Origin: Sphaerisporangium krabiense
GTDB taxonomy: Bacteria > Actinomycetota > Actinomycetes > Streptosporangiales > Streptosporangiaceae
Assembly: GCF_014200435.1 (NCBI RefSeq)
Contig: NZ_JACHBR010000001.1
Span: forward strand, 1,240,001-1,304,000
Direction: 5' to 3'
DNA: 64,000 nt
Below the pieces are notes generated by a model. It searched no databases and was not told the origin of the DNA. It worked only from the letters and a program-made list of their open reading frames with translations. A program made the translations under genes and the position numbers. Shown here piece after piece: positions 58,200 through 63,694 of the stretch (the first letter of the stretch is position 1; each line of letters begins with the position of its first letter).

Positions 58200-59585
58200 A
58201 TGAGTCTCGCCGAGCGCAGCGCCAAAGGCGACATATTCGTGCAACCGAGCGTTGACGGCGACCTGCCCGGCCCGCGCTCGGCGGAACTGCTCGCCCGGCA
58301 GGACCGGCGCGAGTCCAACGCCCGCACGTACCCGCGGCGGCTGCCCATCGCCGTCGCCGAGGCGTCCGGCAGCTTCCTGCGCGACGTCGACGGCAACGTC
58401 TTCATCGACTTCCTGACCGGCGCGGGCGTCCTCTCGCTCGGGCACAACCACCCCGAGCTGGTGCGGACCGTGACGGCGCAGCTCGCCCGCCTCACCCACG
58501 GCCTCGACTTCCCCACCCCCGCCAAGGACGCGTTCACCGAGGCCCAGCTCTCCATGCTCCCCGCGCCGCTGCGCGACCGCATGAAGCTGCACTTCTGCGG
58601 CCCCACCGGCGGCGACGCCGTCGACGCGGCGCTCAAGCTGTGCAAGACCGCGACCGGGCGCGGCGGCGTCGTCGCCTTCCAGGGCGCCTTCCACGGCAGC
58701 GGCCACGCGGCGATGGCCGTCAGCGGCCTCGTGCGGCAGAAGGCGCCGGTCGCCGACGGCGTGCCGGGCGTCCACTTCTTCCCCTACTCCTACTGCGCGC
58801 GCTGCCCGCTGGACCTGGCCCCGCGGACGTGCGACACCAACTGCGCCGCCTACCTCGAACACTCGCTCAGGGACGGCAACGGCGGCGTCGGCCGCCCCGC
58901 CGCAGTGATCATGGAGATGGTGCAGGGCGAGGGGGGCGCGGTGCCGGCCCGGCCCGAGTTCGTCCGGCGCGTCCGGGCGCTGACCCGCGAGCTGGACATC
59001 CCGCTGATCGTGGACGAGGTGCAGACCGGCGGCGGGCGCACCGGCACGTGGTTCGCCTTCGAGCGCTATGACATCGAGCCGGACGTGATCGTCGCCTCCA
59101 AGGCGCTGAGCGGCATCGGCGTCCCCGTCGCGGTCATCCTGTACGACCGGCGGCTCGACGTCTGGGAGCCCGGCGCGCACATCGGCACCTTCCGCGGCAA
59201 CCAGCTCGCGTTCGCCGCCGGGGCCGAGGCCGTGCGGATCATCCGCCGCGACGACGTGCTCGGCAACGTGCGCAGGCGCGGAGAGCAGGTGGCCGGGCTG
59301 CTGGCCCCGCTGGCCGAGAAGAACCCGTGGGTGCGCGAGGCGCGCGGCGCCGGCCTGATGTGGGGCGTCGAGCTGGCCGACCCCCGGGACGGGAGCCCCG
59401 CCACCGGCGCGGCCCGCCGCGTGCAGGCGTCCGCGCTGCGCCGGGGCCTGGTCATCGAGGTCGGCGGGCGCGACGACTGCGTGATCCGCATCCTTCCCCC
59501 GCTCAACGTGACCGCCGACGTGGTGGACACCGCCTGCTCCATCCTGATCGGCGCCATCGAGGAGTGCTGCCCGGTGGCGGCCTGA
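58200..59585 (+). CDS. Diaminobutyrate--2-oxoglutarate aminotransferase
   Basis: A 461-residue class III PLP aminotransferase of the EctB/Dat type, converting L-aspartate semialdehyde and glutamate to L-2,4-diaminobutyrate. Evidence: FIDFLTGAGVLSLGHNHPEL, LHFCGPTGGDAVDAALKL, IVDEVQTGGGRTGTWFAFE (PLP-binding Asp) and the PLP lysine K301 in IVASKALSGIGVPVAV. A Cys-rich YSYCARCPLDLAPRTCDTNC insert is typical of the NRPS/siderophore-linked subgroup. No ectA or ectC is nearby, so ectoine synthesis is unlikely. The NRPS gene follows after 35 bp, so Dab is probably its substrate. The ATG has a strong GGGAGGAGAG site. Confidence 0.9.
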   Translation: MSLAERSAKGDIFVQPSVDGDLPGPRSAELLARQDRRESNARTYPRRLPIAVAEASGSFLRDVDGNVFIDFLTGAGVLSLGHNHPELVRTVTAQLARLTHGLDFPTPAKDAFTEAQLSMLPAPLRDRMKLHFCGPTGGDAVDAALKLCKTATGRGGVVAFQGAFHGSGHAAMAVSGLVRQKAPVADGVPGVHFFPYSYCARCPLDLAPRTCDTNCAAYLEHSLRDGNGGVGRPAAVIMEMVQGEGGAVPARPEFVRRVRALTRELDIPLIVDEVQTGGGRTGTWFAFERYDIEPDVIVASKALSGIGVPVAVILYDRRLDVWEPGAHIGTFRGNQLAFAAGAEAVRIIRRDDVLGNVRRRGEQVAGLLAPLAEKNPWVREARGAGLMWGVELADPRDGSPATGAARRVQASALRRGLVIEVGGRDDCVIRILPPLNVTADVVDTACSILIGAIEECCPVAA

Positions 59586-59620
59586 GGACGGCGACGAGGC
59601 GCACCTGGGACGGAGGCGGC

Positions 59621-62600: not shown

Positions 62601-63694
62601 TGCGGATGTTCGGCGACAGCTCGTTCATCGTCCACTTCCTGCGCGGCCTCGGCTACGACCTGTCCAGGGCGAGCCAGACGGGGTCGAACTTCGGGCTGGA
62701 GCTCAAGCACGAGTCGCCGTACCTGGCCGCCGTCGGCCCGGGCACGATGGTCTCCGACGGGCTGTCGCTGATCAACGCGGACTACTCCGGCACCTCGTTC
62801 CGGCTGTCCCCGGCGACCATCGGCGCGCAGACGTTCCTCGGCAACGACGTCGCCTACCCGTCACAGAGCAGGGCGGGCGACAACTGCCTGCTCGCGACCA
62901 AGGTCATGGTCCCGGTGGACGGGCCCGTGCGGCACGACGTCGGGCTGCTCGGCTCGCCGTGCTTCGAGATCCCGCGCTCGGTGCAGCGCGACAGCCGCTT
63001 CGACCACATCAAGACCGGGGAGGAGCTGCGCCGCCGCCTGGCGGCCAAGAACCGGCACAACGCGGTCACCATCGGCCTGTACCTGCTGGTCCGGTGGGGT
63101 CACCTCTTCGGCGCGACGCTGCTCGCCATGATCGCGGCGAGCCTGTACGGGCGGTTCGGCCCCGCCGTCGTCGCCGCGGGCGTGCTGTGCACGCTGGTCT
63201 TCTCCGCGCTCCTCCTGGCGCTGGTGGAGCACGCCGCGACCGGATTCCGCGCGCTGCGCCCGCGGTTCTGCTCGATCTACCAGCCGTACTACTGGCGGCA
63301 CGAGCGGTTCTGGAAGCTCAGCGGCACGTCCCTGCTGGACGTCTACAACGGCACCCCGTTCAAGAACCTGGTCTGGCGGCTGCTGGGGGTGCGCCTCGGG
63401 CCGCGGGTGTTCGACGACGGCTGCCACATCCCCGAGCGGACCCTGGTGTCCGTCGGCGGCGACTGCACCCTGTCGGAGGGGGCGCTGATCCAGGCCCACT
63501 CCCTGGAGGACGGCACGTTCAAGTCCGGCCGCATCGTGATCGGCGGTGGATGCACGATCGGCGCCAAGGCCCTCGTCCACTACGGCGTGACCATGGGCGA
63601 GGGCGCGGTCCTGGACGCCGACTCCTTCCTGATGAAGGGCGAGGAGGTCGCCCCGCGGGCCCGCTGGCGCGGGAACCCGGCCGTGCAGACCTAG
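59621..63694 (+). CDS. Pls/PosA-family membrane NRPS, predicted diaminobutyrate homopolymer synthetase
   Basis: A 1357-residue single-module NRPS, close in size to epsilon-polylysine synthetase (about 1300). Domains: adenylation (about 45-560; YTSGSTGRPKG, NVYGPTEAT, YRTGDLG, LPSDKADR), a carrier domain with the phosphopantetheine Ser590 in DGLGANSM, then six TM-like helices interleaved with three hexapeptide-like or C-like segments (LGARIGPGAVILSRRVP; LINADYSGTSFRLSPATIG; HIPERTLVSVGGDCTLSEGA), the terminal region of the family. There is no ordinary HHxxxDG condensation domain and no thioesterase. The upstream Dab aminotransferase suggests poly-Dab or Dab oligomers. The ATG has a GGAGG site 4 bases upstream. 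Its stop overlaps a convergent gene by 4 bp. Confidence 0.88.
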   Translation: MTRQADVEDARRPWWPAGRGRDARDSTAPAPAGAGRPGRGRDRLEVLFEEMCDRLRAERRRGAVAVDADGVPLTYDELDARANRLARHLARRGARPGDRIALLFDHGVPAYEGMLAVLKIGATYVPLDPGYPADRLAHILGDAAVRLVLTLSHLRDRLPGAVALCLDEAADAVAAEDGRRLTREERGERPDDLCYIVYTSGSTGRPKGVAVEHASICNFVRVAAEAYGLRRDDRVYQGMTIAFDFSVEEIWVPLMSGATLVPKPPGTSLVGRELREFLQDRGVTALCCVPTLLATLDQDVPGLRFLLVSGEACPPDLVRRWHRPGRRFLNVYGPTEATVTATWTTLHPGRPVTLGVPLPTYSVVILDPDRPRVLPPGELGEIGIAGVGLARGYLNRDDLTARAFIPDFAGLPDNPSGRIYRTGDLGRLTEDGEIEYHGRIDGQVQIHGYRVELAEIESVLLEVPGIAQAVAGTHEPEPGVAELVAYYSARGDAPAPDREEIYAHLRRRLPRYMIPAYLERLAAVPMLPSDKADRAGLPAPTGPRGTSSESPYAAPGTVAEKILADTLARVVHQDQVSVDDHFFDGLGANSMLMARFCARVREEGTLPPVSMKDVYLHPTVRSLAKALTETAPVLAPAEPGAPGLVAPRGGTVRYLLCGVLQLLLFLGYAYAGALAVTACYTWLDGTEDPAELYLRALACGCGLFAGLSLLPIVAKWSLIGRWRPGRFRVWTLAYLRFWTVKTLVRHSPMVLFAGSPLYLMYLRALGARIGPGAVILSRRVPVCTDLLTVGAGTVIRKDAYFSCYRARAGMIEAGPVTLGRDVLVGEFTVLDIGTRMEDGAQLGHSSSLHEGQTVPAGERWHGSPAQPGGAGHPAVAPARCGAARRFRFGLLQLLGTLLLAMPLTVAGSYLLGVLVLEPAGLDGRSTTGWGLVAAALAVSLLLFCGGVAGVLLLVTTVPRLLNLVLTPGRVYPLYGFHYWAHRTVGRLTNTTFLMRMFGDSSFIVHFLRGLGYDLSRASQTGSNFGLELKHESPYLAAVGPGTMVSDGLSLINADYSGTSFRLSPATIGAQTFLGNDVAYPSQSRAGDNCLLATKVMVPVDGPVRHDVGLLGSPCFEIPRSVQRDSRFDHIKTGEELRRRLAAKNRHNAVTIGLYLLVRWGHLFGATLLAMIAASLYGRFGPAVVAAGVLCTLVFSALLLALVEHAATGFRALRPRFCSIYQPYYWRHERFWKLSGTSLLDVYNGTPFKNLVWRLLGVRLGPRVFDDGCHIPERTLVSVGGDCTLSEGALIQAHSLEDGTFKSGRIVIGGGCTIGAKALVHYGVTMGEGAVLDADSFLMKGEEVAPRARWRGNPAVQT

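Follow-up and report, generated by a model that had tools for sequence, protein, structure and literature searches.

RESULTS

A two-gene operon for a predicted diaminobutyrate polymer. We analyzed a stretch of 64,000 nucleotides (the window) from Sphaerisporangium krabiense (RefSeq assembly GCF_014200435.1, contig NZ_JACHBR010000001.1, positions 1,240,001 to 1,304,000 of the forward strand), in which dat, the gene for a predicted diaminobutyrate (Dab) aminotransferase, is followed by a gene for a Pls/PosA-type synthetase, here called P0001. The pair very probably forms an operon that makes a cationic homopolymer of Dab, with gamma-poly-L-diaminobutyrate as the most likely product. Dab as the monomer of P0001, already proposed in an earlier sequence-only reading of this DNA, is supported by the pocket code of the adenylation domain, by the association of this code with genes that form Dab, and by relatives in which Dat or aspartokinase is fused to the synthetase. 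The L configuration (the PldA type, not the PddA/PddB type) is predicted with lower confidence than the monomer. We infer the activity, gamma linkage, and chain length of the product, and likewise the antimicrobial effect and role that the sequence-only reading had called probable.

The earlier description of a Dab aminotransferase gene, a 35-bp gap, and a 1357-residue synthetase with adenylation and carrier domains agreed with the coordinates (Table 1), with the NCBIfam model TIGR00709, and with a Pfam scan. Dat scored 427.6 bits against TIGR00709 (dat; cut-off, 401.6) and 270.8 bits against Pfam PF00202, and it was the only protein of the genome to pass the TIGR00709 cut-off (the runner-up scored 243.8 bits). 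The enzyme is predicted to form L-Dab from aspartate semialdehyde. The proposed Pls layout was borne out by TIGR02353, the model of the Pls/PosA terminal domain, which matched P0001 across residues 656-1354 with 718.5 bits (cut-off, 423.1). P0001 alone passed this cut-off in the genome (8.53 Mb, 4 contigs, 57 AMP-binding matches in total); one other match, of 32.2 bits, lay far under it. Since both genes exceed curated cut-offs, the operon is not a chance arrangement. As the earlier reading had stated, no condensation or thioesterase domain was seen: neither Condensation nor Thioesterase gave a Pfam match in P0001 at E <= 0.001.

The six transmembrane helices that had been claimed correspond to six strong peaks (1.85 to 2.38) in a hydropathy profile averaged over 155 Dab-coded sequences. 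The peaks form three pairs (659-677/696-714, 893-911/936-954, and 1153-1171/1184-1202), and weaker peaks of this family average (up to 1.47) lie in the adenylation domain and at 749-767. In P0001 by itself, at a threshold of 1.6, five hydrophobic blocks were found and the block at 1153-1171 was not seen. The claim of three terminal hexapeptide/C-like segments held in part: three C-like segments are expected from the match to the family model and from published descriptions of its layout, whereas Pfam Hexapep matched a single hexapeptide stretch, at residues 1305-1331. The catalytic parts look intact, to judge from the code lysine K531, the carrier serine S590 (conserved at 90% or above in three code groups), and the six averaged peaks.

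dat and the synthetase gene likely share one transcript, and both have a good ribosome-binding site. The open frame of the synthetase extends upstream (1455 aa counting from a GTG at 59327), so that the ATG at 59621 is a choice of start, and a good one. Since the gene upstream of dat is divergent and the gene downstream of the synthetase is convergent, the unit comprises two genes.

In the pathway that we propose, Dat would draw aspartate semialdehyde from the ordinary aspartate route and transaminate it to L-Dab, as expected from its family. By homology with the PosA pocket, the adenylation domain would pick Dab, with D244 binding the alpha-amine, E248 binding the side-chain amine, and F245 shortening the pocket. 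Dab would then be loaded onto carrier serine 590, the membrane domain would, on family precedent, join the units repeatedly through the side-chain amine, and the chain would be released without a thioesterase.

Pocket code of the adenylation domain. The pocket code of P0001 is DFECLSVVTK (D244, F245, E248, C287, L307, S309, V331, V339, T340, and K531), and it was transferred to other proteins through alignment columns. Its spacing from D244 matches that of D217, M218, E221, H260, N280, T304, V312, and S313 in PosA, of which Asp217 and Glu221 are essential (PMC10522769; here and below, published systems are cited from the available parts of the papers). Code position 2, a proposed setter of substrate length, is Ala for lysine, Met for ornithine, and Phe in poly-diaminopropionate (PDAP) and poly-Dab (PDAB) synthetases (PMC10522769). 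P0001 has Asp, Phe, and Glu at positions 1 to 3 (D244, F245, and E248), the pattern expected of a poly-L-Dab synthetase of the PldA type. Among the best 120 of 7627 protein matches, P0001 included, the code was DFECLSVVTK in 108, DFECLSVVSK in 11, and DFEALSVVTK in 1. The lysine code was checked on L166 and L088 (labels in L denote loci, and those in P denote proteins); their closest solved structure was the epsilon-poly-lysine synthase 7WEW, whose pocket residues in the alignment are, by eye, the same as those of L166.

Linkage of the Dab-type code to Dab-forming genes. We surveyed 96 synthetase reading frames with their neighborhoods. Besides the window, 12 loci from a first search (two Lachnospiraceae loci were dropped), and 3 short search loci, they comprised 40 stretches from the family of the window, in which the TIGR02353 cut-off was exceeded in 84 of 297 genomes; 33 from the family to which the Amycolatopsis orientalis genome belongs, with matches at E <= 1e-150 in 136 of 200 genomes; and 7 from the Streptomyces group, with matches at that level in 172 of 295 genomes. 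A close adenylation core was present in 3 of 150 Streptomyces-group genomes (L130 and L131, Dab-coded, and L132, DFEY-coded). Stretches outside the genus were chosen among the matches listed, with their neighbors unseen, for full-length frames and partly for P0001-like scores; L147 was chosen partly for its long frame and L130 to L132 for a P0001-like core. Neighborhood frames were found with HMMER; a BLAST search over 52 loci missed the distant synthetases of L110, L116, L120, L121, and L123. Four of the 100 frames found were dropped: L127 to L129 are short copies, and L016 is the same place as L098.

A Dab-type code was read in 35 frames, the lysine-type code DAESIGTVVK in 49 (two of them the chimeras described below), a DFEY code in 4, and another or unreadable code in 8, proportions that are not natural frequencies because the stretches were hand-chosen. 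A Dab aminotransferase gene accompanied the Dab-type code in 29 of 35 stretches (28 on the same strand), a same-strand aspartokinase gene did so in 18, and one or the other, on the same strand, in 30. Neither a Dab aminotransferase nor a same-strand aspartokinase accompanied any of the 49 lysine-coded or 4 DFEY-coded frames; ten genes near the four DFEY-coded loci gave no hint of a monomer. Among the eight remaining frames, one, the second half of a split frame in L019, shares an opposite-strand aminotransferase. Also in this group of eight, L020:1382-3928 is an ordinary nonribosomal peptide synthetase module, and L015:7271-9853 has the identical code.

Within the genus, where the search scored three candidates per genome, all 13 listed synthetases over the cut-off were read. 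Six had a Dab-type code with dat directly upstream, and seven were lysine-coded, none with dat. No aspartokinase gene was found in the stretch read around P0001 or around the five further Dab-coded synthetases of the genus; present in 18 of the 35 Dab-coded loci, ask is thus accessory and not defining. Gene order also varied, from dat-synthetase in Sphaerisporangium to ask-synthetase-dat in L010 (Amycolatopsis) and dat-ask-synthetase in L130. An EctB-type enzyme replaces Dat in L102, L105, and the proteobacterial L013, so that the linkage of the code to Dab genes is not that of one inherited pair. These changes in order and enzyme type speak for a repeated association of the Dab-type code with Dab genes. 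Across the loci read, synthetases with Dab-forming neighbors are told apart from lysine-coded ones by the code, which would provide a cheap annotation rule for unassigned members.

Further inspection revealed synthetases to which enzymes of Dab formation are fused. Dat forms the C terminus of P0103 (Pseudonocardia xinjiangensis) and of L147:4142-11212 (TIGR00709, 449.5 and 448.1 bits), and an aspartokinase is fused C-terminally in P0045 (360.4 bits, slightly under the model cut-off of 376). Both kinds of fusion fit Dab as the monomer. A phosphopantetheinyl transferase domain is fused at the C terminus of P0020, P0050, P0053, and P0065 (precomputed Pfam).

Some members of the survey were unusual in other ways. 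L013:4337-9966 (Aquabacterium sp. A7-Y) is a proteobacterial Dab-type synthetase with the code DFECISAVTK and an EctB-type aminotransferase before it. The Dab-coded synthetase of L019:3529-10123 (uncultured Kocuria) is broken across two overlapping frames, and the synthetases P0069 and P0084 carry TPR-type repeats.

Alternative products. Several observations weigh against a Dab polymer. Dat falls below the higher cut-offs set for more specific Dab models (PRK06938, PRK06931, PRK09264, and EctB), which leaves it a member of the Dat family with a predicted rather than proven substrate. Seven of the 35 Dab-code loci (L017, L019, L099, L100, L104, L106, and L131) lack a same-strand Dab aminotransferase within a few kilobases; L017 and L106 do carry an aspartokinase, and no NCBIfam family was matched at E <= 1e-20 by the neighbors of L099 and L100 or by three of those of L131. 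The context counts are not independent, many of the loci being related, and the comparison with PldA and PddA is one of published descriptions. In addition, Phe at position 2 is found in diaminopropionate (Dap) as well as Dab synthetases, and an SbnB-like gene is present in the genome (G000:C1:1962667-1963689, about 660 kb off); its match, broken into two parts of 190.9 and 41.8 bits, lay below the curated cut-off.

The last two points would suit a polymer of Dap, or one mixed with it, dat then serving another purpose; the PDAP synthetase, moreover, adenylated L-Dab, more weakly than L-Dap (PMC4668381). We consider such a product very improbable. No Dap-forming gene pair, assumed to be linked to the PDAP synthetase in the type strain, stands beside P0001, its neighbors being dat, the WYL regulator, and the oxidoreductase and GntR genes, and Dab-forming genes accompany the Dab-type code in several arrangements, including fusions. 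That P0001 polymerizes lysine and lies beside dat by chance is scarcely credible. The lysine code is that of 49 of the 96 frames read, but P0001 has DFECLSVVTK against the DAESIGTVVK of the 7WEW type, and dat accompanied no lysine-coded frame; on these two grounds we rejected this reading. The sequence-only reading had also considered a grouping with PosA-type proteins acting on an unrelated substrate; P0001 was about 30% identical to the lysine-type synthetases of the genus and lay on separate branches from them in trees of the core and of the terminal domain.

With Dab as the monomer, its configuration and the length of the chain can be weighed in turn. Actinobacterial poly-D-Dab synthetases exist (PMC8225329), and PosA accepted D-ornithine at about half the efficiency of L-ornithine (PMC10522769), so that a preference for L or D is not readable from the pocket. 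A gamma-poly-D-Dab product of the PddA type, using D-Dab from a racemase encoded elsewhere, nevertheless seems improbable. The published clusters couple PddB translationally to PddA (PMC8225329), whereas the downstream gene here is convergent. A whole-genome Pfam search for DapF gave a pair of half-matches within a single frame, which we count as one DapF gene, and no further DapF-like racemase; this search had no PddB positive control, and a racemase of another family is possible. A low-threshold scan of the 96 sources for DapF-like proteins returned one meaningless match (E, 2.3), this being a single-sequence scan of uncertain sensitivity for PddB. L-Dab is therefore predicted from the absence of an adjacent PddB-like gene and the single DapF gene of the genome. 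Short Dab oligomers or conjugates with a role at the cell surface or in signaling, in place of an antimicrobial polymer, are unlikely but deserve more weight: PosA made 7- to 12-mers, its knockout modestly altered biofilm (PMC10522769), and chain length is not readable from sequence. The described family members make free cationic polymers, and nothing in the present data distinguishes the oligomers.

The SbnB-like gene lies near several adenylation domains and possibly supplies Dap for another cluster.

Comparison with known systems. Poly-Dab pathways have been described in two other actinobacteria, and the operon adds a member to the described poly-Dab synthetases. The gamma-poly-L-Dab synthetase PldA of Streptomyces celluloflavus (WP_110952768) occurs with dat and ask (PMC8117764, citing Yamanaka et al. 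2020). P0001 resembles it, as described there, in architecture, in the neighboring Dab aminotransferase gene, and in Phe at code position 2; unlike PldA, it belongs to a unit of only two genes without an adjoining aspartokinase. PddA/PddB of Streptoalloteichus hindustanus, which make gamma-poly-D-Dab (PMC8225329), share family and monomer skeleton with P0001 but include a coupled DapF-like racemase gene, which the window lacks; none beyond DapF was found in the genome. Pls (7WEW adenylation domain), which makes epsilon-poly-L-lysine, has the same domain layout and differs in its code. PosA of Acinetobacter baumannii (delta-poly-L-ornithine) shares layout and core pocket spacing but has the code DMEHNGTVSK and a single-gene locus (PMC10522769).

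Nature offers few cationic homopolymers, and they are useful as preservatives and as cell-entry carriers. The operon is a compact and apparently intact two-gene candidate, and its monomer prediction rests on more than the pocket code. In our literature search we found no report of Dab polymers in Sphaerisporangium or of core swaps in the Pls/PosA family, a weak negative given that subscription papers were poorly covered.

Natural core chimeras. Outside the window, two synthetases, L101:435-4481 (minus strand) and L151:2786-7660 (plus strand), combine a lysine-type core with a small subdomain, carrier, and polymerization domain of the Dab type. L101 is 48% identical to P0001 overall. The terminal domains of L101 and L151 show 53% and 50% identity to P0001, against 26% to the lysine-type L088; across residues 60-540, identity is 44% and 41% to P0001 versus 58% and 62% to L088. 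With these two excepted, lysine-coded terminal domains are 21 to 27% identical to P0001. The switch point lies at about P0001 residues 420-430 (60-residue steps), between the core and the small adenylation subdomain. Both proteins fall within the lysine clade in a tree of the core (59 rows; support, 100) and within the Dab clade in a tree of the terminal domain (support, 100). L162:3599-7729 (plus strand) likewise joins a DFEY-type core to a Dab-type terminal domain (tree supports, 96 and 100); the other DFEY proteins, L125, L126, and L132, have a different terminal domain. Against core swaps weigh the shortness of the tree searches and the odd composition of some rows.

We tentatively suggest, as an idea plausible but not yet favored, that the Dab-type polymerization scaffold is indifferent to the monomer and has been retargeted in nature by swapping the adenylation core alone. 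If L101 and L151 make poly-lysine and L162 makes another polymer, one membrane domain would serve several monomers, and the monomer would be chosen entirely by the core subdomain and by which amino acids are supplied locally. The chimeras are ready-made proteins for asking whether the polymerization domain cares about the monomer.

Other synthetases depart from the usual layout. L018:5725-8487 and L020:5812-8409 have a carrier and a Pls-like polymerization domain without an adenylation domain, and L020 also has a partial condensation-adenylation-carrier protein upstream of this frame. L012:5845-9861, L149:3467-7642, and L015:2964-7274 have Dab-clade terminal domains and adenylation domains that look decayed (by eye; conserved motifs altered or missing). 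Among the Streptomyces matches listed, many have an open frame no longer than about 850 to 1000 aa, and the genome of Pseudonocardia alaniniphila (G299, the source of L012) has 17 Pls/PosA terminal-domain matches.

Flanking genes. Table 1 lists the features of the locus. The WYL-domain regulator upstream of dat possibly controls the operon. L096 and L089 likewise have a relative of it ahead of dat; the stretches of L087, L090, and L098, which cover only about 2 kb on that side, showed none.

Table 1. Features of the dat-synthetase locus (window coordinates unless a locus is given)
Feature	Coordinates	Strand	Details
WYL-domain regulator, divergent, upstream of dat	56415-57734, start uncertain	-	Pfam WYL, HTH_11, WCX
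Shine-Dalgarno-like GGGAGGAG ahead of dat	58185-58192	+	Read in sequence
dat, predicted diaminobutyrate--2-oxoglutarate aminotransferase (class III)	58200-59585	+	461 aa, ATG start; TIGR00709, PF00202
Intergenic gap dat/synthetase	59586-59620	+	35 bp; holds GGAGG 59612-59616
Pls/PosA-type synthetase P0001	59621-63694	+	1357 aa, ATG; GGAGG at 59612-59616
Adenylation domain, residues 56-531	59786-61213	+	Pfam AMP-binding 56-394, AMP-binding_C 455-531
Carrier domain, residues 563-627	61307-61501	+	Pfam PF00550; phosphopantetheine serine 590
Membrane polymerization domain, residues 656-1354	61586-63682	+	TIGR02353; three helix pairs, three C-like segments (predicted)
FAD-dependent oxidoreductase, convergent, downstream of synthetase	L023:3691-4848		4-bp overlap

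In L023, the oxidoreductase is followed by a GntR/UTRA regulator gene and, by eye, by a HAD-like hydrolase (the group spans 3691-6400), a set that we take to resemble phosphonate catabolism. On the other side, two genes upstream of the WYL regulator, the window encodes a large LuxR-type regulator with NB-ARC/AAA and TPR regions (Pfam) at 52919-55282 on the minus strand.

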